Source: Geomonas paludis
Lineage (GTDB): Bacteria; Desulfobacterota; Desulfuromonadia; Geobacterales; Geobacteraceae
Length of the DNA stretch: 64,000 nt
Assembly: GCF_014193585.1 (NCBI RefSeq)
Contig: NZ_BLXY01000010.1
Location: 62,001-126,000, forward strand
Direction of reading: 5' to 3'
Part shown: piece by piece, positions 9,586 to 28,656 of the stretch
Position numbering within the stretch: position 1 is the stretch's first letter
How the letters are laid out: every line of letters begins with the position of its first letter
The notes under the pieces: model-generated
Database searches by the model: none
Seen by the model: only the letters and a program-made list of their open reading frames with translations
What the model was told of the DNA's origin: nothing
Program-made: the position numbers and the translations under genes

Positions 9586-11326
9586 GTCGAGACAGCTGAA
9601 CGGGATCGGCGCCTCCGCCGGGATCGCCATCGGCCAGGTCCGCATCACCGACCGGCGCCGGGTGGCAGTGACCGAGGTGCTGGTGGCCAACGAGGAGATC
9701 CCGGGGGAACTGGACCGGTTCACCAGGGCCATCGAGCGCGCCAAGGGGGAACTGTTCGCCCTGCGTGAGCAACTCACCGCCACCCACGGTCCCGAGCACC
9801 TCTGCGTCATCGACGCCCACCTGATGCTCCTGGACGACACCATGCTGGTCGGCGAGACCACGCAGTACATCGAGCGGCTCGGCATCAACGCCGAGGGGGC
9901 GTTGAAAAGGACCCTGGGGCGCTTCAAGGCCTTCTTCGACGGGGTGGACGACGAGTACCTGCGTGAGCGCGGCAGCGACGTCGAGACCGTGGTCGAACGC
10001 GTGCTGCGGCACATGGTGGGGCAGAAACAGGAGCCCCTGGACAACATCGAGGGGAAGGTGATCGTGGTGGCCCACGACCTCTCCCCGGCCGACATCCTGC
10101 AGATCGACAAGAACAAGGTGATGGGCTTCATCACCGACCTCGGGGGGAAGACCTCCCATTCCTCCATCCTGGCGCGGGCCTTCGAGGTCCCCGCGGTGGT
10201 GGGGTTGGAGCGCGTCACGGCTGAGGTCCGCGAAGGGGACACCCTGATCATCGACGGCGCCACCGGCGTGGTCATCGTCAACCCCGGGGCGGAGGAATTC
10301 AGGGAGTACCTGCAGAAGAAGCAGCGCTACGAGTACGTGGAGCGGGAGCTGCTGAAGCTGCGCGACCTGCCGGCCCAGACCCTGGACGGGCACCGCATGC
10401 GCCTCAAGGGGAACGTGGAGTTCATCGAGGAGGTCGCCTCGGTGCACAAGCACGGCGGCGAGGGGATCGGCCTGTACCGCACCGAGATGCTCTTTTTCAA
10501 CCGCAGCAAGCTCCCCACCGAAGAGGAGCAGTTCGAGGCCTACTCGGCGCTGGTGAAGAAAATGGCGCCGCAGCCGGTGACCATCAGGACCCTCGACATC
10601 GGCGGCGACAAGTGCCTCACCGACCTGGACCTTTCCGACGAGATGAACCCGGCGCTGGGGGTGCGGGCGATCCGCCTCTCGTTGCGCCAGCCCGAGGCCT
10701 TCAAGGCGCAGCTGCGCGCCATCCTGAGGGCGAGCGCCTTCGGGGAGGTGAAGCTCTTCTTCCCCATGGTATCCGGCGTGGCCGAGGTGCGGGCCGCCAA
10801 GGCGATCCTGGATGAGGTGAAGGAGGAGTTGCGCGGCAAGCACGCTTTCGACGAGAAGGTGCAGGTGGGCATCATGATCGAGATTCCGTCCGCCGTGGTC
10901 ATCGCCGACCTCCTGGCGGCGGAGGTCGACTTCTTCAGCGTCGGCACCAACGACCTGATCCAGTACACGCTGGCCATCGACCGCACCAACGAGCACCTCT
11001 CCTCGCTGTTCCAGCCGCTGCACCCGGCCGTGCTCCGCTCGCTGAAGACCATCGTCGACGCAGCCCACAATGCCGGGATCGAGGCCTCCATCTGCGGCGA
11101 GATGGCCGCGGACCCGGAGTACCTCCCCATCCTCCTGGGGCTTGGTTACGACGAGCTGTCCATGAACGCGGTCTCCATCCCGCGGGTCAAGAAGATCCTG
11201 CGTCGCTGCACCGTGCAGGAGGCGCGCGAGGTGGCCCGGAAGGCCCTGAGCTTTGCCACCGCCGCCGAGGCGGACGCCTATTTGAAAGGGGAGATCGCCG
11301 CCCGTTTCTCCGAGAGCTTCGACTAG
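9566..11326 (+). CDS. ptsI: Phosphoenolpyruvate-protein phosphotransferase, enzyme I
   Basis: This is a full-length 586-residue enzyme I. The phospho-histidine motif GGKTSHSSILAR lies near residue 197 and is followed by the PEP-binding TIM-barrel with TLDIGGDK and the C-terminal SICGEMAADP active-site loop. It moves phosphate from PEP to HPr. There is no N-terminal GAF domain, so it is the general rather than the nitrogen (PtsP) form. Its stop shares the tetranucleotide CTAG with the stop of the convergent gene, leaving no room for a terminator between them. Confidence 0.97.
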   Translation: MDSEKSESRQLNGIGASAGIAIGQVRITDRRRVAVTEVLVANEEIPGELDRFTRAIERAKGELFALREQLTATHGPEHLCVIDAHLMLLDDTMLVGETTQYIERLGINAEGALKRTLGRFKAFFDGVDDEYLRERGSDVETVVERVLRHMVGQKQEPLDNIEGKVIVVAHDLSPADILQIDKNKVMGFITDLGGKTSHSSILARAFEVPAVVGLERVTAEVREGDTLIIDGATGVVIVNPGAEEFREYLQKKQRYEYVERELLKLRDLPAQTLDGHRMRLKGNVEFIEEVASVHKHGGEGIGLYRTEMLFFNRSKLPTEEEQFEAYSALVKKMAPQPVTIRTLDIGGDKCLTDLDLSDEMNPALGVRAIRLSLRQPEAFKAQLRAILRASAFGEVKLFFPMVSGVAEVRAAKAILDEVKEELRGKHAFDEKVQVGIMIEIPSAVVIADLLAAEVDFFSVGTNDLIQYTLAIDRTNEHLSSLFQPLHPAVLRSLKTIVDAAHNAGIEASICGEMAADPEYLPILLGLGYDELSMNAVSIPRVKKILRRCTVQEAREVARKALSFATAAEADAYLKGEIAARFSESFD

Positions 11327-12102
11327 GGCTGGGGCTGCCGGGTCAGCGCCTGCAGCGCGAGCTCGACGGCCAGCGCCAGCCGTTTCCCCGCCCTGCGTGA
11401 GTTCCCCGCCAGCCTGATCAATTGTGGAATCAAGTACGGCCGCTTTGCGATGGTCCAGGCCACCCGCCAGGGGACCAGGTGCAGGTCGGCATCGCAGAAT
11501 TCCTCGATGGCAAACCCGAGTTCCTCGTCGGCCGCGTCGCTCACCCCCCGGATCGCCACCAGCGGTATCCCCGCAGACTGTGCCTGTTCCAGTACCGCCG
11601 CCGTCTCCATTTCGAGCAGCGGCAGCGGCGTGCTCCCCCCCAGACGGCTCGCCATCTCGGTCTTGTTCCTGATGCCGCAGGCGGTGATGAAACCTCCGCG
11701 CCGCAACTGCACCCCGACCTTGGCACTGTAGTCCTGCACCAGGGACGCCAGGGCGGCGTCGGGCTGCGGGAGTTCACCCAGGCCCTCCTGGTCCAGACGG
11801 AAGACCCGGTCCGCCAGCACCAGTTCGCCGACCTCCAGGCCGGCCAGGACGGCGCCGCCGAAACCGAAATTGAGGATGGCGCCCGGGGCCGCGTGCCGGA
11901 TCAGCGCCCTGGTCGCCGCCGCGGCCTGAGCCGGTCCCATCCCGGACTCGATCAGGTAGACCAGGCTGCCGTTCACGGGGAAGCGGTACAGGTTGCGCCC
12001 GTCGATGTTGCCCCGGGCGTATCCCTTTATGCGCGCCAGCACCGGCGCAATCTCCTGGGGCATGGCAGCGACCACACCCAGGCTTTTGTTTTCCTTGGCC
12101 AT
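11323..12102 (-). CDS. hpnG: Nucleoside phosphorylase family protein, probable hopanoid HpnG
   Basis: The 259-residue protein belongs to the PNP/MTA-SAH nucleosidase fold: start GVVAAMPQEIAPV, glycine-rich LNFGFGGAV, and the active-site run LEMETAAVLEQA followed by IRGVSDAADEE. HpnG removes adenine from adenosylhopane on the way to bacteriohopanetetrol. I infer that role from the divergent neighbour hpnJ and from the extra basic C-terminal tail (AWTIAKRPYLIPQL), which ordinary MTA/SAH nucleosidases lack. An unrelated nucleosidase role such as futalosine cleavage is possible. GGGAGA precedes the ATG at 12102. Confidence 0.65.
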   Translation of the reverse strand: MAKENKSLGVVAAMPQEIAPVLARIKGYARGNIDGRNLYRFPVNGSLVYLIESGMGPAQAAAATRALIRHAAPGAILNFGFGGAVLAGLEVGELVLADRVFRLDQEGLGELPQPDAALASLVQDYSAKVGVQLRRGGFITACGIRNKTEMASRLGGSTPLPLLEMETAAVLEQAQSAGIPLVAIRGVSDAADEELGFAIEEFCDADLHLVPWRVAWTIAKRPYLIPQLIRLAGNSRRAGKRLALAVELALQALTRQPQP

Positions 12103-12184
12103 TTTGGTTCTCCCTTACGAGCGGTCACTTTATCAGAGGGGAGCCGCCACCGCAACGCTTTCCCGGGCTTAGGGGCGGTTCACC

Positions 12185-12213
12185 TTGACAAAAGGTGGCC
12201 GCCGTCTTATAGT
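12185..12213 (+). promoter_or_regulatory. Sigma-70-type promoter of hpnJ
   Basis: A perfect TTGACA (12185-12190) and TATAGT (12208-12213) are 17 bases apart. The hpnJ ATG lies about 40 bases after the predicted start, with GGAGGGG as ribosome binding site. Confidence 0.75.
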
Positions 12214-12257
12214 CAGGCTTCTTTTTTTGGTGTGACGCTATTAATCTGGAGGGGTGT

Positions 12258-13679
<1,422 letters not shown>

Positions 13680-18430: not shown

Positions 18431-18538
18431 TTTGTTATGCGCGCCGGCGCGGGTTGGGCTTCCTGCTCCCGAATAGCGGCACTTTCTTGTCTCGTTATCG
18501 ATTCAGATCGACAAGGTTGAGCCTTTGGCGTCGGAACT

Positions 18539-19112
18539 AAATTGAAAACGCAAAAGGTTGAGCCCCCGGTATCGTGAGTAAATTGAAAACGCAAAAGGTT
18601 GAGCCCCCGGTATCGTGAGTAAATTGAAAACGCCGAAGGTTGAGCCTCCGGCATCGTGAGTAAATTGAAAATGCCGAAGGTTGAGCCTCCGGCGTCGTGA
18701 GTAAATTGAAAACGCCGAAGGTTGAACCTCTGGCGTCGTGAGAAAATTGAAAACGTCGAAGGTTGAGCCTCCGGCGTCGTGAGTAAATTGAAAACGTCGA
18801 AGGTTGAACCTCCGGCGTCGGAACTAAATTGAAAACGCCAAAGGTTGAGCCTCCGGCGTCGTGAGTAAATTGAAAACGCCGAAGGTTGAACCTCCGGCGT
18901 CGGGAGTAAATTGAAAACGCCAAAGGTTGAACCTCCGGCGTCGTGAGTAAATTGAAAACGCCAAAGGTTGAGCCTCCGGCGTCGGGAGTAAATTGAAAAC
19001 GCCGAAGGTCGAACCTCCGGCATCGGGAGTAAATTGAAAACGCCGAAGGTTGAGCCTCCGGCGGCGTGAGTAATTTGAAAACGCAAAAGGCTGAGCCCCC
19101 AGCATCGTGAGT
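18539..19112. repeat. Fourteen tandem 41-bp repeats
   Basis: Fourteen uninterrupted units of exactly 41 bases run from 18539 to 19112, each starting AAATTGAAAACGC. A degenerate partial copy precedes at about 18500-18538. Units differ at a few positions (AAGGTTGAG/AAGGTTGAA, CCTCCGGCG/CCCCCGGTA, GTGAGT/GGGAGT). Within each, CGCCGAAGG and CCTCCGGCG form an imperfect stem with a five-base loop. Because 41 is not a multiple of three, the open frames through it are by-products of the repetition. Together with the terminator at 18404 it fills the 760-base gap between the glutaredoxin-like gene and the chemoreceptor; no gene is seen. Confidence 0.97.
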
Positions 19113-19138
19113 AAATTTACCCACCATTCTACCCAGTC

Positions 19139-20668
19139 CTAAAAGGTGAACCGGTTCACCATCCTGGTCAGCTTCTCCACCTGGCTTTCCAGGTCTCGCG
19201 CGGCGAGAAGGGCCTCGGCGGCCCCGCTGGCGTTCTTCTCCGTCACCCCGGTGATCTGCGCCGTCCTCTGGTTGATCTGCTCAAGCCCCAGCGTCTGCTC
19301 CTTCACGGTGGCAAGGATCTCGTCGGTGAACTGGGCCAGCGCCTGCGCTCCGACCACGGCCCCTCCCAACTCCCCGTCTATCTCCCGGGAGAGCGTTACC
19401 CCCTGGCGGGAGAGTTCGGAGGAACTCCTGGTCAGGGTCCCGGTGCTCTTGGCAGCGTCGGCCGACTTCACGGCGAGGGAGTGGATCTCGTCGGTCATCA
19501 CCCGGAACTCTTCCCCTGCTCCTTCGACATGGGCCGCCTCGACGGCGGCGTTCACCCCCAGCAGATTAGCGAAGCGGGCGATCTTCAACAGGCTGTCGAT
19601 AAGGGCCCGGAATTCCTCCTGGTGCTCGCCCCCCAGCTTCTTTTCAAACTGGGCCATGGCCCCGGCGGTGTCGGAGCACTGGCGGGAGAGCTTGCGTATC
19701 TCCTGGGCCACCACTCCGAATCCTCCCGCCGAGACGCGCATGCGCGCCGCCTTGACGACGGTGCTCCCGGCCAGGGTGCCGGTCTCCTGGGCGATCCCGT
19801 CGATGTCGGTGGCAATGCTGGCGGTGCTGTCGGCCGCCCCGCTGATCTCGTCCATGGAGGCGAGCATCCGGTTCATGGACTCCTTGGCGCGCACGATCGC
19901 CTCGCTTGCCTTGCTGGCATGGCCGTAGGCTTCCTGCGAGCGTGCCGCGCTTTGGGCTGCGCTTTCCGACAGTTGCGCCAGGCTCACCGCGGCCTCCCCC
20001 AACTCCTTACTCTGCTCCCCCGCCCCCTGGGCGATGGAGGAGCTGATGCTGGTGATTTTGCGCCCCACCTGCGACACGAGGGCCACCGCCTCGGAGACCT
20101 GGGAGATGGCGTCGTGCAGGGCCTGGGCGGTCCCGTTCATCGCCTTTCTGATCGCGGCGTGCTCGCCGCGGTATCTCCCTTTCATCCTGCTTTGCAGGTC
20201 GTAGCGCGCCAGCCGCTCGAGCACCTCCCCCGCCTCGTGCACCGGGGCAATGACGGCATCGAGGGTGACGTTGAACCCGGTGATCAGCTCCTTCCAGATC
20301 CCCCTGTAGTCCCAGTCGTTACCGCGGGTCTTGAGCTTTCCTTCCCTGATGCTGTCGGTCAGGTGCATCGTCTCCTTGTGCATGCCGTAGAGAATGGCCA
20401 AAAGCGTGTTGATGTTCTGCTTGATCTCGTTGTATTCCCCCGGGTACTCGTCGATCACGAAGGGGGGGAGGTTGCCGTGGGCGATCTGGTCCAGGGCGCC
20501 CCCGGCCAACCGCAAGGGGGCCACCAGAGCGTCGATCATGGCGTTGATCTGCCGCACGATCTCCGCGTCATCCCCCTTCAAGCCGTTCAAGTCCCCGCGC
20601 ACGTCGAGCCTTCCGGCCATCATCGCTTCGCTGAGTTGCTGTACCACATGGCTAGCCGCCTTGCCCAT
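19139..20668 (-). CDS. Cytoplasmic methyl-accepting chemotaxis protein with two signalling tips
   Basis: The 509-residue protein has no membrane span. HAMP-like segments fill residues 30-200 (APLRLAGGALDQIAHGN, APVHEAGEVLERLARYD). Two segments then resemble the conserved chemoreceptor hairpin tip. Tip 1 is about 289-336 (IDGIAQET; GGFGVVAQEIRKLSRQ); tip 2 is about 362-408 (LLGVNAAVEAAHVEGAGEEF; MTDEIHSLAVKSADAA). Each lacks part of the consensus. It is the last gene of the hydrogenase operon and overlaps the protease gene by 17 bases, with GGAGG before its ATG. It probably couples hydrogenase or V4R-like input to CheW and CheA; CheA is not in this window. Confidence 0.85.
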   Translation of the reverse strand: MGKAASHVVQQLSEAMMAGRLDVRGDLNGLKGDDAEIVRQINAMIDALVAPLRLAGGALDQIAHGNLPPFVIDEYPGEYNEIKQNINTLLAILYGMHKETMHLTDSIREGKLKTRGNDWDYRGIWKELITGFNVTLDAVIAPVHEAGEVLERLARYDLQSRMKGRYRGEHAAIRKAMNGTAQALHDAISQVSEAVALVSQVGRKITSISSSIAQGAGEQSKELGEAAVSLAQLSESAAQSAARSQEAYGHASKASEAIVRAKESMNRMLASMDEISGAADSTASIATDIDGIAQETGTLAGSTVVKAARMRVSAGGFGVVAQEIRKLSRQCSDTAGAMAQFEKKLGGEHQEEFRALIDSLLKIARFANLLGVNAAVEAAHVEGAGEEFRVMTDEIHSLAVKSADAAKSTGTLTRSSSELSRQGVTLSREIDGELGGAVVGAQALAQFTDEILATVKEQTLGLEQINQRTAQITGVTEKNASGAAEALLAARDLESQVEKLTRMVNRFTF

Positions 20669-21131
20669 GAGCCCCTCCCTGTACCAGTTTCCTCACCGTG
20701 GCGACCGCCCCGTCGATGGCTTTTGTCACCTCGGCGGTCATGAACTTCCGCGTCATGTTGAAGCAGCGCCCCTCGATTCCCACCAGGGTCACCCGGTCCG
20801 GCATCCGTTCCGGGTAGAGGATCCTGCCGATCTCGATCGCCTCCCGGACCCCAACGTCATGTGCCGAAACGCCGGTACCGCTTGCTGGAATGTCCCGCCA
20901 CGGGAGCACGTGCAGCGTTCCCGGGGGCGCCCCCAGCTGCACCGCATCAACCACCACCAGATCGCTTTCCCCGTCCAGGAGCGCCAGGAGGTCGATACCT
21001 CCCACCCCCAGGTACTCGAGCCGGGCCGGACACGGCGCCAGGCGCTGGTAGACCTCGTACCCGGCGGCGTCGTCGGCGATCAGTTCGTTGCCGATGCAGA
21101 CCACTACTGTACGGCGGTCTGGAAGCTGCAT
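20652..21131 (-). CDS. [NiFe] hydrogenase maturation endopeptidase
   Basis: The 159-residue protein belongs to the HyaD/HoxW/FrcD family. The nickel-sensing residues are visible in GNELIADDAAGYEV (near 14-27), VVDAVQLG (Asp62) and SAHDVGV (His91). It trims the C-terminal tail of the large subunit after nickel insertion. The neighbouring large subunit indeed keeps a 23-residue tail after DPCLSCATH. The start at 21131 overlaps the V4R-like gene by 28 bases. The longer open frame reaching 21551 reads through other genes and is rejected. Confidence 0.9.
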   Translation of the reverse strand: MQLPDRRTVVVCIGNELIADDAAGYEVYQRLAPCPARLEYLGVGGIDLLALLDGESDLVVVDAVQLGAPPGTLHVLPWRDIPASGTGVSAHDVGVREAIEIGRILYPERMPDRVTLVGIEGRCFNMTRKFMTAEVTKAIDGAVATVRKLVQGGAHGQGG

Positions 21132-21559
21132 TGATCCCCCACACTCACCAAGGTGGATTTTACGGGGCGGCACAGCAATCCGTTGGCAATGCCGTCGAAG
21201 TAGGCGTGGAACAGGCGGCAGAGCGCCCCCCCCAGCTCGATGCGGCGCAGCCCGCACATCTCCCGCAGGATGCAGCGCTCGAAGGTCAGCTGCTCCCCGG
21301 TGAGGGAGAACTGGAAGCCGGCCTGCATCTGGCGGGAAAGCGCGCCCACAACCTCCTCCAGCGAGGCGCCGGAGAGCTCCAGCGGCAGTTTCTCCGCCGT
21401 GTCCCTCCCGGCGATCCTCCCGACCGGCGCGGTGTTCCCCCCCATGATGTTGTCGATGGTGCTGGCGAAGGCGTCCAGCAGGAAGGCCACCTCGACGTAA
21501 GCCTTCTGGTAGTCGTCCGCGCTCAGCTCCACGTTGTAGCTGCGCTCGCAATTGTTCAT
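21104..21559 (-). CDS. V4R-like cysteine-containing protein, paralogue B
   Basis: The 151-residue protein has no recognised catalytic motif. Its C-terminal half resembles a V4R-like small-molecule-binding fold: FERCILREMCG, GGALCRLFHAYFDGIANGLL and the terminal GDQCSF. It aligns with the protein at 24195-24689: Cys96, Cys114 and Cys144 here match Cys106, Cys124 and Cys155 there with nearly equal spacing. Conserved cysteines hint at a metal, cluster or heme ligand, or at redox sensing, but the ligand is unknown. Its ATG overlaps the ferredoxin stop as ATGA, so it is part of the operon. A hydrogenase assembly role is an alternative. Confidence 0.7.
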   Translation of the reverse strand: MNNCERSYNVELSADDYQKAYVEVAFLLDAFASTIDNIMGGNTAPVGRIAGRDTAEKLPLELSGASLEEVVGALSRQMQAGFQFSLTGEQLTFERCILREMCGLRRIELGGALCRLFHAYFDGIANGLLCRPVKSTLVSVGDQCSFQTAVQ

Positions 21560-21810
21560 AGGAATTTCCCCATCTTTTGGCAGAACTCCTCGTCCCGGTA
21601 GAAGTTCTTCACCGGGTGGAAGTCGCGCTGGGTGATAGCCCCCGACGGGCAGATGTAAGCACAGGAGAGACAGGCGATGCAGTCCTCGGCGTGCTCCACC
21701 GTGCAAAGCCGCCGCTCCTGGTCCATCGCGAAGACCTTGGTGGGGCAGATGTCGACACAGAGCTCGCAGCCGCGGCAGGACTGCTCGTGGACGGTGATCT
21801 CTACGGGCAT
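21556..21810 (-). CDS. 2[4Fe-4S] ferredoxin-like protein
   Basis: This 84-residue protein has two four-cysteine motifs, CRGCELCVDICP near residue 12 and CIACLSCAYICP near residue 43, followed by a 30-residue tail ending KNFYRDEEFCQKMGKF. It should carry electrons from the hydrogenase small subunit. The tail is longer than in simple clostridial ferredoxins and has another cysteine. It follows the large subunit after three bases and is preceded by GAGGTAGC. Confidence 0.92.
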   Translation of the reverse strand: MPVEITVHEQSCRGCELCVDICPTKVFAMDQERRLCTVEHAEDCIACLSCAYICPSGAITQRDFHPVKNFYRDEEFCQKMGKFL

Positions 21811-21813
21811 GCG

Positions 21814-23229
21814 CTACCTCCTCAGGGTGCGGACGGTTTCCCCGTCCTTACGGATGATGACCTGCATGGGCATGCGCCCCACCGCATGGGTGGCGCAGGA
21901 GAGGCAGGGGTCGTAGCAGCGGATGCTGAACTCCACTGCGTTCATGAGCGCCTGGTCGTTGGGGCGGTCGATCACGTGCGACTGCGCCGACTGTTCGATG
22001 GAGCGGTTGATGATGGAATAGTTCTGCTGGGTGGCGACGATGAGGTTGGCGCTCCGCACGATCCCCTGGTCGTCGATCTGGTAGTCGTGGATCAGGGTGC
22101 CGCGCGGCGCCTCCACGTGCCCCACGCCCCTGCCGCCCTGGAAACGGACCGGGACCCGGGTCTCGCCCCAGATCTCCTTCTCGCGCAGGATCTCCTCCGC
22201 CCGCTCCACGGCCCAGATGATCTCGATCAACTTCGCGTAGGTCTGGAAGACGGTGGTGTGGCAGGGGGTCCCCCCCAAGCGGCAGAACTCGGCGTACTCG
22301 GCGTCGGCGAGTTCGGTCCCGAAACGGCGCGCCACGTTCATCCTCGCCATGGGCCCCACCCGGTAGTCGTGCAGCTCCCCGTCCAGGTTCAGTCGCACCT
22401 TCTTCATGTAGGACCATTCCACCACCGACTCCTGCAGGTAGCGGTGATACTCCTCGACGCCGAACTCGGCCCGCGCTGCCCCCTGCTCGTCTATCGCGCG
22501 CAGTTTCCCCTGGATCAGGGAGACCCGGTCCTCGTGGACCGTTCCCAACCCCCAGGAGGGGACCACCCAGTCGGCGGCCATGGCCGGGTGATCCTGGAGC
22601 GCCTTCAACAGGAGCCCTTTCACCGCCGGCGCCACCTTGGGGAGGAGCTTTTTCGCCTCGGCGACCCACCCCTTGAGCACCTTGTGCTTTTCCTTCTCCA
22701 GGACGAAGGCGATGCCGCCGGCCACCGAGGTGACGGGGTGGGTGCCTCTCCCCCCGACCATCTCGTTGATGCGCTGCCCGATGCTGCGCAGGGCAAGGGC
22801 CATCTTCGCCAGTTCCGGGTTCGCCGCCACGATCCCCACGATGTTCCGCTGCCCGGGTTCGGCATCCAGCCCCAGCACCAGGTCCGGCCCCTGCAGCACG
22901 AAGATGGAGAGGGAGTGGGAATGGATGATGTGCCCGAGATACATGAGTTCCCGCAGCAGGAGGGCGGCCGGCGGCGGGGCCACCCCGGCGGCGTTGTCGA
23001 GCGCGTTGCAGGCGGCAAGGTGGTGCGCCGTGGGACAGACCCCGCAGATGCGGGCGGTGACGTGCGGCATCCGGTCCGCCTCCATGCCGATCAGGATCTT
23101 TTCGAATCCCCTGAGCTCGTTCACCACGAGCCCCGCGCTCTCCAGCTTTCCGGCGGCGTCCAGGTCGATGAACACCTTGGCGTGTCCCTCGATCCTGGTG
23201 ACCGGGTCGATCTTCAGCGTCTTCTTCAT
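21814..23229 (-). CDS. Cytoplasmic [NiFe] hydrogenase large subunit (Mvh-like, group 3)
   Basis: The 471-residue catalytic subunit has both nickel-binding motifs: ARICGVCPTAHH (Cys62, Cys65) and DPCLSCATH at 440-448 (Cys442, Cys445). A 23-residue tail after His448 is expected to be removed by the operon's own protease. The start MKKTLKIDPVTRIEGHAKV is typical of MvhA/HoxH-type subunits, and there is no Tat signal on the small subunit, so the enzyme is cytoplasmic. All residues needed for H2 activation seem present, so it should bind H2 even if its role is sensory. ATGA overlap with the small-subunit gene. Confidence 0.93.
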   Translation of the reverse strand: MKKTLKIDPVTRIEGHAKVFIDLDAAGKLESAGLVVNELRGFEKILIGMEADRMPHVTARICGVCPTAHHLAACNALDNAAGVAPPPAALLLRELMYLGHIIHSHSLSIFVLQGPDLVLGLDAEPGQRNIVGIVAANPELAKMALALRSIGQRINEMVGGRGTHPVTSVAGGIAFVLEKEKHKVLKGWVAEAKKLLPKVAPAVKGLLLKALQDHPAMAADWVVPSWGLGTVHEDRVSLIQGKLRAIDEQGAARAEFGVEEYHRYLQESVVEWSYMKKVRLNLDGELHDYRVGPMARMNVARRFGTELADAEYAEFCRLGGTPCHTTVFQTYAKLIEIIWAVERAEEILREKEIWGETRVPVRFQGGRGVGHVEAPRGTLIHDYQIDDQGIVRSANLIVATQQNYSIINRSIEQSAQSHVIDRPNDQALMNAVEFSIRCYDPCLSCATHAVGRMPMQVIIRKDGETVRTLRR

Positions 23230-24173
23230 GCCTCTCCCCCTGCCTCGAAATCGGCCTGCTCCTCTTCAATCCACTTCCTGATGTGGAAGGTGGGCTTGTT
23301 GCCGATCATCTGCGTGGCCATGGTGTAGGAATAGTGCGACTTGGCGGAGCGTTCCAGGCTGCGCACGATCTCGTCGCGCCCGATGCGGGTGAGCCGGGAC
23401 ATCCGGTCCGCGATCTCCGTCCTTATGTCCCGGTTGGGCTCGGTCAGTATCTGCATGGTGGCCCCGGCGCAGCCGGTGCAGGGAACCCCGTTGCCGGGAC
23501 AAGGGGCGAGGCAGCGGTCGATGGTGACCGATCCCAGGCAGGTGTACCCCTGGCTCAGGAAGCAGCGCTCCGGGTCGGGCACCCCCTCGAAGTGGGAACG
23601 CAGCGTCTCGACCCCGGTCTTCTCCATCTTGCGCTTGCACTTGGCGCAGACGCTGCGCCCGTTCACCTCCGGCTGCCTCCCCTCCACCAGCGCGATCAGG
23701 GCCTCGAAGACGAAGGCGGGGTGCGGCGGGCAGCCCGGGAGGTAGAGGTCGACCTCGACCACCGAGTCCAGCGGGGAGACCTGCGACTCCAGTGGGGAAA
23801 CCATCTTCGAGGGGGGCGGGGCGGGGACGGTGGTCTTGTTCTCCAGGTAGACCGCCGCGGCTATCTCATCGGGCGTGTGGATGTTGCCCGCCCCGGCGGG
23901 CCCACCGAAGACGGCGCAGGAGCCCCAGGCGATCACCAGATCGCAGGCCTTGCGCATCTCCAGGGCGGCCTGACGGTCGTGCTCGTTTCTGATGGCGCCC
24001 GACACCAGCCCCACGGTGGCGGGCGGATAATCCTTGATGTCCGTGAGGACGGGGCAGCGCTGGATGCGCACCGCCTCCAGCACGCTCAGGATCTTCTCGT
24101 GCAGGTCGACTATGGCGACGTGGCACCCCGAGCAGTCGCTCAGCCACTCGGTGTTGACCGTTACCTCCCCCAT
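23226..24173 (-). CDS. Cytoplasmic [NiFe] hydrogenase small subunit (MvhG-like)
   Basis: The 315-residue subunit has the proximal-cluster cysteines in SDCSGCHVAIVD, GSCAVFGGPAG and LPGCPPHP, and a cysteine-rich C-terminal half (VCAKCKRKM, GYTCLGS, CLAPCPGNGVPCTGCAG) like that of MvhG/FrhG-type subunits. It has no Tat signal or membrane anchor, so it stays in the cytoplasm. It relays electrons from the nickel site to the ferredoxin. A proline-rich insert (PAPPPSKMVSPLESQVSPLD, about residues 117-136) looks like a family-specific loop. GGGGAGG precedes the ATG. Confidence 0.92.
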   Translation of the reverse strand: MGEVTVNTEWLSDCSGCHVAIVDLHEKILSVLEAVRIQRCPVLTDIKDYPPATVGLVSGAIRNEHDRQAALEMRKACDLVIAWGSCAVFGGPAGAGNIHTPDEIAAAVYLENKTTVPAPPPSKMVSPLESQVSPLDSVVEVDLYLPGCPPHPAFVFEALIALVEGRQPEVNGRSVCAKCKRKMEKTGVETLRSHFEGVPDPERCFLSQGYTCLGSVTIDRCLAPCPGNGVPCTGCAGATMQILTEPNRDIRTEIADRMSRLTRIGRDEIVRSLERSAKSHYSYTMATQMIGNKPTFHIRKWIEEEQADFEAGGEA

Positions 24174-24194
24174 GACGTGTACCTCCCCATGCCG

Positions 24195-24689
24195 CTAGCA
24201 GTCCCTGACCAGCAGTCTCTTGTAGCAGGCGTTTTCCCCGGCGTGGACGATCTCCAGCGACGACTCGCGCCCCATGATGTTCTGCAGAGCCCCCGCGAAG
24301 AAGCCGTACATCATGTTGCACAGGGAACCCTTCTGCACGTGCCCGAAGCGGAACAGCGACTGGCGGATCATGCAGTCCCTGAACACCAGCATCACCTCCA
24401 TCCCCTGCTCCGTGCGCCGCACCAGGCTTTCCTGGTCGTGCGTCTGGAAGGGCTCGAAAAGCCAGAGGTAGTCGTTTTTCTCCAGGACCTCGCGGGTCGC
24501 CTGCAGTGCCTGCTCGATGCTGTCGGTAGAAGGCACCCCGCGGGAAAGCTTCTTCCCCAGGTTCACGCCGGCCAGGTAGGATATGCCGCTTGCCGACTCC
24601 CCGATCGCCTGTTCCGTTCCCGAGGCAATGGCCCCCAGGAATACCATGGCGTCCTGCAGCGCCAGTCTCTGATTGCGGGTCTCTTCCAT
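24195..24689 (-). CDS. V4R-like cysteine-containing protein, paralogue A
   Basis: The protein has 164 residues from ATG 24689, which has AGGAGC eight bases upstream; ATG 24695 is too close to that site. It is similar to the 21104-21559 product: FRDCMIRQSLFRFGHVQKGS, LCNMMYGFFAGAL and GENACYKRLLV line up with that protein's C-terminal half, conserving three cysteines (106, 124, 155). A further cysteine ends the protein. Such folds bind hydrophobic ligands, heme or metals in other sensors; what is bound here is unknown. It sits between cheW and the hydrogenase subunits, which points to a sensory or adaptor role. Confidence 0.7.
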   Translation of the reverse strand: MEETRNQRLALQDAMVFLGAIASGTEQAIGESASGISYLAGVNLGKKLSRGVPSTDSIEQALQATREVLEKNDYLWLFEPFQTHDQESLVRRTEQGMEVMLVFRDCMIRQSLFRFGHVQKGSLCNMMYGFFAGALQNIMGRESSLEIVHAGENACYKRLLVRDC

Positions 24690-24699
24690 GATCATGCTC

Positions 24700-25125
24700 C
24701 TATGCGAGATGCTTGAGGTCCATCACCACCACCAGCCGGTTTTCCAGGTTGAGGATCCCCTCGACCCAGGGCTCTCCCCCCACGTCGAGCGGAGGCAGGA
24801 TGGTGCTGCGTTGGACGCGGATCACGTCGGTCACCTCGTCGATGACGAACCCTTTAAGTTCGCCGCCGAAATCCATCACGGCGATGCAGGTGAAGGTGCC
24901 GTCCTCGACCGCCGGGAGGCCGAACTGCTTTCTTAGTGAGATAACCGGCACCACGCTCCCCCTGAGGTCGATCACCCCCTCCACGTGGCCTGGGGCGTTG
25001 GCCAGTTTGGTAACGGGTATCATGTCGACGAACTCGCGGACCTCCATGACGTCCACGGCGTACTCCTCCCTGCCCAGCATGAAGGTCACCATCTGAAGTG
25101 CGTCATTGGATGAGGTAGCTGCCAA
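24700..25125 (-). CDS. cheW: CheW-like chemotaxis coupling protein
   Basis: This 141-residue protein is a single CheW domain: FMLGREEYAVDVMEVREFVD, LANAPGHVEGVIDLRGSVVPVISLRKQFGL, FVIDEVTDVIRV and GILNLENRLVVVMDL. CheW links chemoreceptors to the CheA kinase. TTG at 25125 is the start, with AGGAGGA a good distance upstream. It is the first gene of the eight-gene hydrogenase-chemotaxis operon, and its dedicated receptor is probably the last gene. No cheA, cheY, cheR or cheB occurs in the window, so it must feed a kinase encoded elsewhere. Confidence 0.94.
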   Translation of the reverse strand: MAATSSNDALQMVTFMLGREEYAVDVMEVREFVDMIPVTKLANAPGHVEGVIDLRGSVVPVISLRKQFGLPAVEDGTFTCIAVMDFGGELKGFVIDEVTDVIRVQRSTILPPLDVGGEPWVEGILNLENRLVVVMDLKHLA

Positions 25126-25467
25126 TGTCTTCCTCCTGCGTCAGCGGAATTGGACTGGAGAGCCGGGGAGCGCTGCCGGTGTGATCATGGCAGCATGAGG
25201 AGTGGAGCGGGCGATCGGAGGGTTGAGAAGGATGATGGCCAGCAACGTCTGGGCGGAACCGGCGAGAGCAACATATGGGGGCTTATCGGGAAGGGGGGTG
25301 GTAACTTAAATTTTATCTGGTTAAAAAACGGGGTTTATTGGGTACTAATGACCACGTTTCGGGCTGCATCCCGTAGGGTAATTTGCAGTCATCACGGCAT
25401 TTTCTCCCGACCATCCTCGTGATGCATCGCCACGGTGGGAAGCACGGCTATGCTTCCCCAGGAAAGA
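25126..25467. other. Gene-free gap with stem-loops before the cheW-hydrogenase operon
   Basis: No convincing gene is seen. GGGAAGCA (25437-25444) pairs with TGCTTCCC (25451-25458) just after the HD-GYP gene and may end its transcript, although no T-run follows. CATCACG (25390-25396) pairs with CGTGATG (25418-25424). A nested stem around CTGCATCCCGTAGGG lies near 25363-25388. The promoter of the cheW operon should be here; the AT-rich stretch near 25305-25330 is the best place to look, but no consensus element stands out. A known riboswitch core was not recognised. Confidence 0.5.
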
Positions 25468-26445
25468 TCAAATCTCCGTCGGTTGATCCTCTGCCAGCAG
25501 GAAGAACAGGGTCTGCACCAGCTTGGGGTCGAGGTTGGTGCCGCTCATCCCCTTCATGGTCCACGTGACCTCTTCACGGGTGAACCCCTTGCGGTAGGGG
25601 CGATCCATGGTCAGCGCGTCGCAGATGTCGGCGGTGGCCACGATCTGGGCCTCGATGGGTATCTTGCTTCCATCCAGCCCGTACGGGTACCCCTTGCCGT
25701 CGAACCGTTCGTGGTGGTAGAGCACGATGTTCTGCACCGTCGTGGAGAGGTTCGCCTTCCTCACCACTTCGCACCCCCACTCGGGATGCTTCATGACGAT
25801 CTTGAATTCCTCCGGGGTCAGTGCGCGTTCCGCGTTGAGGATCGCTTCGGGCACCCCGATCTTGCCGCAGTCGTGCAGCCAGCTGCCGTACCTGATCTCC
25901 TGCTGGACATCCTCGGGGACCCCGAGCTTCGCCGCCAGCCTCAGGGCCAGGGTGGCGACCCGGTCGCAATGCCCCTTGGTGCAGGCGTCCTTCAGCTCGA
26001 TGGTCTGCGCCAGCGAGTGCAGGATGAACTCGTCTTCGCGCTTGATGGCCTGCAGCACGCGGTAGCGGCGGATGCCGTCCTTTACCGCCCGCAGCATCTC
26101 CGCCTTCTTCCACGGCTTCAGGACAAAACGGAACACCTCGCCGCTGTTGATGGCCGCCAGCGTCGTGGAAAGGTCGGCGCTCCCGGTCATCATGATCTTC
26201 ACCGTGTGGGGCGAGACCTCCTTGATCCGGGACAGGAGCTCGATGCCCCGCATTCCGGGCATCTCGTTGTCCGAGACCACCACGGCCACCGACTGGTGCT
26301 CGACGATCTGCAGCGCCTCCATCGCGGAAGCAGCGGTCAGGATGTTGAGGCCCCTGTTCTCGAACAGGTCGCTGGTGTAGGCCAGGTAGCTTTTCTCGTC
26401 GTCCACGAACAGGACGGTCTCGCGCTGCTGTTCCTTGTTTTGCAT
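25468..26445 (-). CDS. Response regulator with HD-GYP output domain
   Basis: The protein has 325 residues. An N-terminal receiver (about 8-125: FVDDEKSYLAY, phospho-Asp in VVSDNEMPGMRG, Lys in VLKPW) is joined to an HD-GYP domain. Its motifs are intact: HDCGKIGVP, HHERFDGKGYP and ADICDALTMDRPYRKG. It should hydrolyse c-di-GMP when phosphorylated. Start ATG 26445 has GGAGAGGG upstream; the ATG at 26469 does not. The partner kinase is not adjacent, and it lies upstream of, and in line with, the hydrogenase-chemotaxis operon but is separated by 342 bases. Confidence 0.92.
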   Translation of the reverse strand: MQNKEQQRETVLFVDDEKSYLAYTSDLFENRGLNILTAASAMEALQIVEHQSVAVVVSDNEMPGMRGIELLSRIKEVSPHTVKIMMTGSADLSTTLAAINSGEVFRFVLKPWKKAEMLRAVKDGIRRYRVLQAIKREDEFILHSLAQTIELKDACTKGHCDRVATLALRLAAKLGVPEDVQQEIRYGSWLHDCGKIGVPEAILNAERALTPEEFKIVMKHPEWGCEVVRKANLSTTVQNIVLYHHERFDGKGYPYGLDGSKIPIEAQIVATADICDALTMDRPYRKGFTREEVTWTMKGMSGTNLDPKLVQTLFFLLAEDQPTEI

Positions 26446-26574
26446 GTGCCCTCTCCACGGACGACTCATTAAGTAGCCGCCGTACTCTTATCGGCACAAC
26501 TGCCGCGCGGAATAGTAAAAAATGCATCTGTCTAAAAAAGTTAATCGTTTTGCGGTGCTACGGCGCGGCCTCGC

Positions 26575-26883: not shown

Positions 26884-26996
26884 CCGTTTTCCCGTGACAA
26901 TTTCAGTGGCAAGCCTCAAGGTCGCCCCTTTGCTGCCGATAAAGACCCCAAGTCGGCGCGCTTTTGCGCCGGCACGAGCTCGAAACGGAGGTAGCC

Positions 26997-27959
26997 ATGG
27001 GGGAGCTTTACGTACCCGTAAGCATAGAGAGCATCCAGGCGGACATCTTCCCGGACGTCGCCCTGTACATAAAAAGCGGCGGCAAATACATCCTTTACAA
27101 GAGTCATGGCAGGAATTTCTCCAGCCAGGATGCCGCCCGCCTGATGGAGAACAAGGTCGAATTCCTCTTCGTAAGCCCCGCCGATCTCGAGGTGATCACG
27201 GCCTACATGGAGAACAACGCCGAGCGCGTGCTGAAGGACGATACGCTAGAGGCGAAGACCAAGGGGAAGATCATCTACCAGACCTCCATCAACTTCGTGG
27301 GGGACATCTTCGAGCACCCCCAAAAGGTCTCCGACTTCTCCCGCAGCCAAAGGATGGTCGAGAACCTGCTGCAGTACCTGGCCAGCGACCGTGACTCCTT
27401 CCAATCGCTGGAAAGCGTGATGACCCACAACTACTACACCTTCGTGCACAGTCTGCAGGTGACGGCCCTGTCCGTGCTGCTGCATGCGGAGGCCTACCTC
27501 CTTTCCCACGACGAGATGCTCGACGTCGGCATCGGGACCCTGCTGCACGACTTCGGCAAGGTCTTCGTCTCTCCTGCCATCCTCAGCAAGGAGGGGAAGC
27601 TTACCCCGAAAGAGCTGGAGGAGTACCGCAAGCACCCCGAAGAGGGTTACCAGTACCTGAAGAAGAACACCAAACTCTCCGACATCTCGCTGGGGGTGGT
27701 GCGTTGTCACCACGAGCGCAACAACGGCAACGGCTACCCGCAGGGGCTGAAGGGGCCTGAGATATCGCGCAGCGCCCAGGTCGCCGCGATCTGCGATGTC
27801 TACTGCACCCTGACCATAGACCGCTCCTGCCGTAAGGCACTCTCCTCGTCTATAGCGCTGCTGATCATGAAGCAGGAGATGAAGGGATCCTTCAACGAGC
27901 GGCTGCTGGACACACTGGAGGGAATCGTCTGCTGCGACAACCCGGCACAGTTCCTTTAG
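26997..27959 (+). CDS. HD-GYP domain protein with variant motif
   Basis: The protein has 320 residues. The N-terminal part (about 1-140) is unassigned. The C-terminal HD-GYP domain starts at HSLQVTALSV and includes LLHDFGKVFVSP and HHERNNGNGYPQGLKG. The usual HHExxDGxGYP has Asn in place of Asp, and the later DxxDAL is CDVYCTL. These changes may lower or alter c-di-GMP hydrolysis. GGAGGTAGCC precedes ATG 26997. A GC hairpin (CGGCGC/GCGCCG near 26955-26972) lies just upstream. It stands between a regulator of the same family and a CheX-like protein. Confidence 0.88.
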   Translation: MGELYVPVSIESIQADIFPDVALYIKSGGKYILYKSHGRNFSSQDAARLMENKVEFLFVSPADLEVITAYMENNAERVLKDDTLEAKTKGKIIYQTSINFVGDIFEHPQKVSDFSRSQRMVENLLQYLASDRDSFQSLESVMTHNYYTFVHSLQVTALSVLLHAEAYLLSHDEMLDVGIGTLLHDFGKVFVSPAILSKEGKLTPKELEEYRKHPEEGYQYLKKNTKLSDISLGVVRCHHERNNGNGYPQGLKGPEISRSAQVAAICDVYCTLTIDRSCRKALSSSIALLIMKQEMKGSFNERLLDTLEGIVCCDNPAQFL

Positions 27960-28152: not shown

Positions 28153-28656
28153 TTGAGCAACAGCATAACGTTCGAAGAGATCATGTTCACCATCATGTCC
28201 GCCACGCAGGACACCTTCAAGAGCTACATGAATACCGACATCTACGCGGGGAAGGTGGAGAAGAAGATCAACCCGCTGACCAGTGACGTGGTCGGGATCG
28301 TGGGCGTCGCCGGGGACCGGGTCGGCTACATCATCTTCGCCACCGAGAAGGGGCCCGCCGAACAGATTGCCAAGGACCTCCTGATGCTGGACGAAGCGGA
28401 TGACGAGGCCATCAACGATGCGGTCGGCGAGGTCGCCAACAACATCGCCGGTGTCTTCAAGACCAAGTACCACGAACAGTACGGCAGTGTCGCCCTGGGG
28501 CTTCCGCTGGTTCTCTCCGGGCGCCTGCGGCCGATGACGGATCCCCCCGAACAGTCCACCACGGACGGAAGCATGAGCGTACAGTGCAAGGGGGTGACCA
28601 TCCCCTTCACCACCATGGACGGCAGACTCCACTTCCGCGTCATGGTCTACATGTAA
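28153..28656 (+). CDS. cheX: CheX/CheC-type CheY-P phosphatase-like protein
   Basis: The 167-residue protein fits the CheX fold. The phosphatase signature E-x2-N is in DAVGEVANNIAGVFK near residues 93-107, and the domain ends with VTIPFTTMDGRLHFRVMVYM. CheX removes phosphate from CheY in place of CheZ. TTG 28153 is the start, preceded by AAAGGGGG; no in-frame ATG would keep the first helix. The gene stands close to other signalling genes but in its own unit, with a strong terminator after it. It may act on a receiver protein outside the motility pathway. Confidence 0.85.
   Translation: MSNSITFEEIMFTIMSATQDTFKSYMNTDIYAGKVEKKINPLTSDVVGIVGVAGDRVGYIIFATEKGPAEQIAKDLLMLDEADDEAINDAVGEVANNIAGVFKTKYHEQYGSVALGLPLVLSGRLRPMTDPPEQSTTDGSMSVQCKGVTIPFTTMDGRLHFRVMVYM

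Follow-up and report, generated by a model that had tools for sequence, protein, structure and literature searches.

The window analysed here is a 64,000-nucleotide (64-kb) stretch of the genome of Geomonas paludis (contig NZ_BLXY01000010.1, positions 62,001 to 126,000), and its minus strand carries an operon in which the genes of a [NiFe] hydrogenase lie among those of a chemotaxis system. Domain calls for the eight encoded proteins were made with Pfam and NCBIfam. From the cheW gene to the gene for a methyl-accepting chemotaxis protein (MCP), the operon comprises:

24700 to 25125, minus strand: cheW, 141 amino acids (aa), TTG start (Pfam CheW, 121.5 bits, E 2.5e-35)
24195 to 24695, minus strand: V4R-A, 166 aa, assigned to the V4R superfamily (61-row alignment A5; profile homology to V4R-B)
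23226 to 24173, minus strand: [NiFe] hydrogenase small subunit, MvhG-like (Pfam Oxidored_q6; no export signal by eye)
21814 to 23229, minus strand: [NiFe] hydrogenase large subunit, MvhA-like (Pfam NiFeSe_Hases; both nickel motifs and a 23-aa C-terminal extension)
21556 to 21810, minus strand: 2[4Fe-4S] ferredoxin, 84 aa (Pfam Fer4)
21104 to 21559, minus strand: V4R-B, 151 aa, predicted V4R/Bet3 fold (AlphaFold2 (AF2) model; 61-row alignment A4; no Pfam match for the window copy)
20652 to 21131, minus strand: hydrogenase maturation protease, HycI family (TIGR00072, 100.1 bits, cut-off 47.45)
19139 to 20668, minus strand: membrane-free MCP with HAMP_2 repeats and a signalling domain (MCPsignal, 86.4 bits, cut-off 34.6)

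An original prediction, made from the sequence alone, had read this gene set as a possible H2 sensor wired to a chemoreceptor. All eight open reading frames are present in the order and close packing that it described; by their coordinates, neighbours are spaced from a 28-nucleotide (nt) overlap to a 21-nt gap, and by eye purine-rich sequences of the ribosome-binding-site type precede most of them. It had further stated that no HdrABC, MvhD or diaphorase gene lies at the locus, and Pfam and NCBIfam indeed found no HdrA, MvhD or diaphorase gene among the eight. An [FeFe] catalytic domain was likewise found by Pfam in none of the eight proteins.

We compared gene neighbourhoods across 58 genomes, the window's own included, of which 13 (again counting its own) encode a large subunit of at least 67% identity. 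The seven genes from V4R-A to the MCP keep their order and strand in all 12 of these relatives, so the arrangement is not a product of chance. Named genomes were also scanned with a V4R-A profile, a selection independent of the hydrogenase, which gave 62 loci, some of them from the genomes of the 12 relatives. Five core genes (V4R-A, small subunit, large subunit, ferredoxin and V4R-B) stand in order in 56 of the 62 loci, and the remaining six stop at contig ends (L063, L070, L101, L114, L117 and L118); a few of the 56, for example L083, L085 and L115, have a truncated or interrupted V4R-A. The protease gene comes next in 55 of the 56 (in L113 it lies upstream instead), and the MCP gene follows the protease in 37 of those 55. 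The neighbourhood test proposed with the original prediction was mostly passed: both V4R genes accompany the hydrogenase in every locus long enough to hold them (56/56). The core, from V4R-A through V4R-B together with the protease, is one conserved genetic unit. Counted by whole genomes, V4R-A occurs in 6 of 48 from the family, 32 of 141 from the order and 6 of 395 sampled across the phylum, and it was not found in 29 searched genomes of other genera in the family. Neither the V4R genes nor this MCP were found in 18 loci of other hydrogenase lineages in the relatives (L043–L050 and L136–L145).

The history of the receptor was traced on a quick large-subunit tree of 63 rows, five of them outgroup, with support by SH-aLRT only. 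Rows linked to the MCP form one branch with a support of 98, made up of 38 rows, the window included, and the cut locus L063. Leaving aside the cut rows and the outgroup, the MCP and cheW each require a minimum of one change; the MCP was gained once and never lost, being kept in 38 of the 38 rows of its clade, and it is therefore hardly a passenger. (Our group table gives two changes for the MCP because L063, which is cut before the MCP, falls inside the clade.) Among the host labels in the clade are Thermodesulfobacteriota, Pseudomonadota, Ignavibacteriota, Acidobacteriota, Myxococcota, Candidatus Eiseniibacteriota and Candidatus Latescibacterota, labels that may be wrong in single cases because most are those of metagenome bins. 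Rows lacking the MCP belong to Desulfobulbales-type bacteria, bins labelled Myxococcota and a single Brocadiia bin. Between MCP and large subunit, pairwise distances have a correlation of r 0.91, a value matched in none of 2,000 permutations, and small and large subunit likewise give 0.91.

The nearest solved chains are MvhA for the large subunit (5odc_F, E 1.3e-97) and MvhG for the small subunit (5odc_E, E 3.6e-74); the best NCBIfam models are VhuA and VhuG, both below cut-off. Both nickel motifs, which had been described as intact, are present together with the 23-aa extension after the last one in all 57 loci with an uncut large subunit, and two cut loci (L070 and L101) show the first motif only. 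Across 60 rows, thirteen small-subunit cysteines do not vary (C14, C17, C77, C86, C148, C176, C179, C204, C212, C221, C225, C232 and C235), and the ferredoxin has two CxxCxxCxxxC motifs in 56 of 57 loci. Because the nickel motifs, extension, cysteines and ferredoxin motifs are kept, established family knowledge leads us to expect that the hydrogenase activates H2.

V4R-A and V4R-B match each other as profiles (hhalign 97.5%, E 6e-12), and both retain residues of a metal-binding type. C126, H151 and C157 of V4R-A are invariant in 61 of 61 rows and E148 is nearly always kept; in V4R-B, C96, C114, H118 and C144 are invariant in 61 of 61 rows and C102 is nearly always kept. The AF2 model of V4R-B (predicted local distance difference test, pLDDT, 90.8) matched Bet3-Trs33 (VIA Z 11.6, 124 residues, 3.1 Å), MopR (VIA Z 10.5, 134 residues, 4.7 Å), the V4R protein MJ1460 (VIA Z 9.9, 115 residues, 3.9 Å), BcsD (VIA Z 9.9) and H-NOX (near 8), and resembles the sensor domains of PoxR and DmpR as well as that of MopR. 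V4R-B is thus predicted to fold like Bet3, V4R and H-NOX proteins, an assignment new here. Sequence searches are less clear. V4R-A matches Pfam V4R weakly (12.6 bits, cut-off 31); this model appears in 43 of 61 V4R-A members at E values up to 0.5 (best 0.0026), and searching PDB sequences with profiles of the two proteins found no relative. Against V4R membership, the two profiles gave probabilities of 6% and 4% only when compared with nine local Pfam-V4R proteins, a set that represents 9 of 17 loci (L180 and L182 were left out, as were the near-copies L188, L189, L191, L192, L194 and L196). The label V4R-like therefore stands for V4R-B by the fold of its model and for V4R-A by its profile match to V4R-B, but neither by the Pfam V4R cut-off, which is not reached. 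Pfam ATC_hydrolase also matches 42 of 61 V4R-B members at E values up to 0.5 (best 2.2e-07).

The local Pfam-V4R proteins share the motif C-x22-E-x2-C-x7-C, which we take to be the zinc-binding site in MopR. The V4R-A set C126/E148/H151/C157 resembles it at the level of sequence, with histidine replacing one cysteine, and V4R-B keeps at most C114 and C144 of a set of this type. The two proteins could instead be assembly or storage factors without a part in signalling, with a receptor that senses the hydrogenase directly or responds to something else, and it fits such a role that the pair is tied to the hydrogenase and not to the MCP, persisting in loci that lack the latter. We nevertheless think this unlikely, given the invariant metal-type residues of both proteins and the similarity of the V4R-B model to the ligand-sensing domains of MopR, PoxR, DmpR and H-NOX, although the structural proteins Bet3 and BcsD match it equally well or better.

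Pfam recognized two HAMP_2 stretches in the MCP, with no other confident domain and no sensor domain. The receptor had been predicted to be free of the membrane, and no transmembrane-like stretch was found in it or in 41 homologues: the highest 19-residue Kyte–Doolittle mean is 1.34 (1.51 over the homologues). Where an MCP is defined by a single conserved hairpin tip, alignment gives this receptor two copies, each partly conserved. The signalling tip is, on this evidence, duplicated, with copies that have degenerated differently, a feature new here:

19664 to 19816, minus strand: receptor tip copy 1, residues 285–335; the C-side motif GGFGVVAxEIRKLS is the best-kept part; K at the Tsr E385 position
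19454 to 19591, minus strand: receptor tip copy 2, residues 360–405; the N-side motif NLLGVNAAIEAAH is the best-kept part; E385 retained, R388 replaced by H

Tip positions are counted in what we take to be Tsr numbers. Copy 1 (residues 292–330) has K385 in 39 of 41 sequences, R388 in 31, F396, V399 and A400 in all 41 and R404 in 39; copy 2 (residues 363–401) has E385 in 40, H388 in 41, N376 in 38 and N381 and A382 in all 41. Measured against a reference limited to eight normal tips, the copy 1 consensus agrees at 5 of the 13 positions from 376 to 388 and that of copy 2 at 10, whereas at positions 395–404 the values are 7 of 10 and 4 of 10. The contrast is weaker over whole tip halves (8 versus 12 of 19, and 9 versus 8 of 20, for copies 1 and 2). 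Insertions and deletions near residue 343 change the spacing of the two copies by 4 to 11 residues. In the AF2 model of the MCP (pLDDT 81.3; predicted template modelling score 0.37) there is a single turn at residues 343–346 and helices run through both copies; the tip may be M-shaped with two further turns, or may be one long hairpin that encloses the old tip motifs.

A search with the tip region (residues 280–405), in which up to 31 preliminary candidates were scored per genome, gave matches at E 1e-15 in 32 of 138 genomes from the order, with one match each apart from G492. Thirty of these are also among the 32 V4R-A genomes of the order, so the doubled-tip form is almost confined to the operon; G499 and G525 showed the tip only, G464 (52% complete) and G513 (a weak, divergent match) V4R-A only, and a few genomes may be in only one of the two draws (141 for V4R-A, 138 for the tip).

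Upstream of the operon we found a candidate flagellar-type promoter:

25283 to 25309, minus strand: sigma-28 (FliA)-like promoter TTAAGTTA-N11-CCCGATAA, with its first base 184 nt ahead of the start codon of cheW

At up to three mismatches the window holds two FliA-like matches, against 0.07 expected. Across five Geomonas-type species, both boxes are the main conserved islands of a diverged upstream region in which the spacers differ, and a second clade (L038, L040, L041 and L042) shows TAAAG and CCGATA at unchanged spacing. Scores of at least 12 out of 16 were reached by 13 of 73 upstream regions (9 distinct genomes), compared with 12 of 1,460 random windows and 57 of 3,650 shuffles. A shorter motif, allowing at most one mismatch, is present in 12 of the 43 upstream regions of MCP-bearing loci (11 different genomes), 0 of 23 others and 23 of 1,980 random windows; ten of the 12 matches are perfect and have equal spacing. 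The conserved boxes show the operon to lie behind a predicted FliA-type promoter in Geomonas-type species and in the second clade, which is new here. A sigma-54 promoter was rejected, as six matches in the window are the number expected by chance and none precedes the operon. A sigma-70-type scan found none, and Rfam gave no match in the window at the gathering threshold.

Six tested window genes that flank the operon are not conserved beside it, the sole matches being partial ones (30–33%) to one HD-GYP gene, and the HD-GYP and CheX genes of the window were rejected as members of the unit for this lack of conservation. The gene for the CheX-type phosphatase (28153–28656; Pfam CheX, E 3e-19) lies roughly 3 kb away from the operon, on the opposite strand, beside two HD-domain genes at 25468–26469 (with a receiver domain) and 26964–27959. 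The second FliA-like site of the window, TCAAGGTC-N11-GCCGATAA at 26916–26942 on the plus strand, stands shortly ahead of the latter. Directly behind the MCP gene, positions 18513–19117 hold 14.8 tandem copies of a 41-base repeat (89% match), and several of these units read as hairpins of the terminator type on the strand of the operon; 11 related loci were tested, and in none was a comparable array seen.

We looked for CheA and flagellin in MCP-bearing genomes only, leaving out that of L074. CheA is encoded in 36 of 36 searched genomes and flagellin in 35, the exception being G561. The window genome has seven CheA homologues, and 33 of the 36 have two or more. An H2 sensor could in such genomes act through an alternative CheA on a chemosensory pathway that does not steer flagella but controls, for example, matrix, pili or transcription; a tip unlike that of canonical receptors would suit a private pathway of this sort. 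The near-universal flagellin in the genomes counted argues against it, as does the FliA-like promoter in two clades. The same is true of G545, G550 and G551, which have one CheA each (a lower bound, because bins may be incomplete) that in two of the three is no more than about 16 kb from a flagellin gene (G545, contig C224; G551, contig C63). G546 has two CheA genes, one within about 13 kb of a flagellin gene. We regard a pathway other than flagellar steering as unlikely.

With modest confidence, we favour the view that the operon is a cytoplasmic, H2-responsive input module for chemotaxis. An H2 input to chemotaxis is the best reading because hydrogenase and receptor have a long joint history, a flagellar-type promoter precedes the operon in two clades, and the operon contains no acceptor enzyme. 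H2 would be oxidized at the NiFe site, and the small-subunit clusters and then the ferredoxin would hand the electrons on to a metal or Fe–S site in the V4R-A/V4R-B pair, which probably dimerizes like Bet3-type proteins. This pair or the whole complex would dock on the HAMP stalk of the receptor, a protein without a recognized ligand domain, and the doubled tip would relay the change via CheW to CheA and so bias swimming (H2 taxis). The data suggest, but do not yet prove, that the Geobacter relatives and other bacteria with this unit steer by hydrogen gas. A more specific proposal, which we make tentatively and hold to be possible but somewhat doubtful, is that of a split chemoreceptor: NiFe hydrogenase, ferredoxin and a V4R heterodimer would be the detachable sensory head of a HAMP-only receptor whose tip has been duplicated into two unequal copies. 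If so, this would be the first chemotaxis receptor based on a NiFe hydrogenase, in a unit passed whole between phyla and, in some clades, transcribed with the flagellar regulon.

Several observations weigh against an H2 input to chemotaxis. The original prediction proposed to test whether cheW always travels with the hydrogenase, and it does not: we rejected cheW as a fixed part of the unit, since it was gained once and is confined to one Geobacter-type subclade, occurring in 15 of the 62 loci and 7 of the 12 close relatives. The receptor, also named in that test, travels with the hydrogenase throughout its own clade, but 18 of 55 loci have the core without it. No receptor of this kind was found elsewhere in the four MCP-less genomes searched (L102, L103, L112 and L116), three of which gave no match at E 1e-20 and the fourth four generic matches near 90 bits, so the core has a use independent of the receptor. 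Without a normal tip, binding of the MCP to CheW and CheA is not assured, and the AF2 model leaves the shape of the tip unsettled. As for the promoter, the shorter FliA-like motif is absent from 31 of 43 MCP-bearing upstream regions, including most cheW-bearing relatives outside Geomonas. When the motif was checked on flagellin-type control loci, 4 of 14 scored at least 12, and none of 14 genes of the own genome (7 MCP and 7 cheA, on the right strand) did, the best reaching 11; in this set the gene start falls outside the sequence covered for L120, L128, L129, L130 and L134, and a gene within an operon does not require a separate promoter.

Part of this evidence would also suit an ordinary catalytic hydrogenase that serves the ferredoxin pool or a distant Hdr/FlpD complex, with the MCP as a reporter of turnover (energy taxis) or as a passenger. 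The nearest solved relatives, MvhA and MvhG, are catalytic, and the core exists without the MCP. Homologues of the hdrA/mvhD type, which had been named in advance as pointing to ordinary catalysis, do exist in the window genome, though none is in the operon: FlpD has a single match, on another contig, and an HdrA homologue adjoins it, so catalysis may still take place. Six matches to the large subunit in all mean that this genome has further hydrogenase-type large subunits. A canonical MvhAGD–HdrABC locus is ruled out by the eight genes, which include neither MvhD nor HdrA, and by the location of FlpD and the HdrA homologue on another contig. Other MvhA-type hydrogenases of the relatives are indeed accompanied by an HdrA homologue (L136 and L140), and three HdrA-type rows on the large-subunit tree fall outside the operon's hydrogenase family. 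(Three HdrA-like proteins were tested, two of them from the other-lineage loci L136 and L140, matching HdrA models below the cut-offs.) The lack of an electron-acceptor enzyme in the operon, the two V4R proteins in every locus long enough and the unbroken retention of the MCP in its clade also speak against catalysis as the main role, to which we assign a low probability. In L140, a same-genus genome, a different MCP with a normal tip (11272–12468, minus strand; MCPsignal, 165 bits) lies directly upstream of the MvhA-type hydrogenase that the HdrA homologue accompanies, a second hydrogenase–receptor neighbour pair.

An input module for H2 would matter in anoxic sediments, where H2 is a main currency and how bacteria would find it is poorly known. 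A hydrogenase joined in one unit with a soluble receptor provides a direct, deletable test of H2 taxis in cultivable relatives of Geobacter, and the doubled tip raises the question of how far the interface between chemoreceptor and CheA can be rebuilt.

Loci without the MCP have other neighbours, seen in a Pfam scan of ten chosen proteins. Robl_LC7 (Roadblock/LC7, MglB-type) genes lie beside the core in 4 of the 18 MCP-less loci, and L113 has them as well:

L093, 4292 to 4651: Roadblock gene (Pfam)
L095, 9613 to 9969: Roadblock gene (Pfam)
L096, 614 to 970: Roadblock gene (Pfam)
L110, 7096 to 7452, minus strand: Roadblock gene (Pfam), on the other strand from the core
L113, 9493 to 9888 and 13785 to 14180: Roadblock genes on either side of the core, the first below the Pfam cut-off

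These genes are a possible second kind of output. Roadblock proteins, histidine kinases and other neighbours were rejected as a universal second output, Robl_LC7 genes having been seen, among the ten proteins scanned, beside the core in these four loci and L113. In Desulfobulbales-type loci the flanks look by eye like unrelated genes; in three of them (L099, L104 and L109), genes for a PAS-histidine kinase and an NtrC-like regulator, again by eye, adjoin the MCP-less core, upstream and divergent in L099 and L104 and downstream in L109. A conserved small protein of about 150 aa with the motifs RPGVSYSLRP and IPGGLAGADGYCFD is encoded downstream of the core in L105 (14996–15448), where it has no Pfam match at E 0.01, and similarly in 10 Desulfobulbales-type loci. 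A core that stands without the receptor or beside Roadblock proteins suggests that hydrogenase and V4R pair together may serve as a general module for H2 input whose outputs can be exchanged.

Parts of the operon resemble known systems. The V4R-B model shares its fold with H-NOX/V4R-type sensor domains (MopR, PoxR and MJ1460; Z 8 to 10.5), but V4R-A and V4R-B are separate small proteins, not fused to a receptor or activator, and the cysteine set of V4R-B departs from the usual site. With the [NiFe] group 3c complex MvhAGD–HdrABC (PDB 5ODC) the hydrogenase has in common its nearest subunits, MvhA and MvhG, a cytoplasmic type and an expected protease-processed C terminus. The gene linkage to MvhD/HdrABC that marks group 3c is absent from the operon, where a small ferredoxin, the two V4R proteins and a receptor take its place. 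Large subunits of the regulatory group 2b presumably have no cleavable C-terminal extension and no protease of their own, whereas here the 23-aa extension is found in 57 of 57 loci and the protease downstream in 55 of 56. The enzyme of the operon also belongs to a different lineage, and its output is an MCP where group 2b has a histidine kinase. What the two share is a hydrogenase that as an H2 sensor would feed a phosphorelay (PMC5037454).

The passages available from the HydDB paper (PMC5037454) list histidine-kinase-linked [NiFe] 2b, diguanylate-cyclase-linked 2c and putative chemotactic [FeFe] C2 classes, and name no chemotactic [NiFe] class. Group C2, 'chemotactic (putative)', is likewise proposed to sense H2 through methyl-accepting chemotaxis proteins (PMC5037454), but is an unrelated enzyme class, whereas the operon combines a [NiFe] catalyst with a separate HAMP-only receptor. 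The genome paper of G. bemidjiensis counts eight cheA genes, and its hydrogenase and chemotaxis passages do not mention such an operon (PMC2996986); a term search did not find 'hydrogenase' in the main text of Tran 2008 (PMC2577667). Among the matches listed by our literature search, which most subscription journals fall outside, no publication beyond annotations of MvhV connects a NiFe hydrogenase to a chemoreceptor. In those annotations, given in proteomic papers (PMC7894505; PMC8691401, in the parts available), the Mvh cluster of G. sulfurreducens, GSU2416–2423, spans eight locus tags and includes MvhV, named as a methyl-accepting chemotaxis transducer. An Mvh cluster that contains an MCP is thus already annotated in print for Geobacter, and by this published annotation, rather than by sequence, GSU2416–2423 is like the operon described here: a hydrogenase cluster of eight tags that names an MCP.

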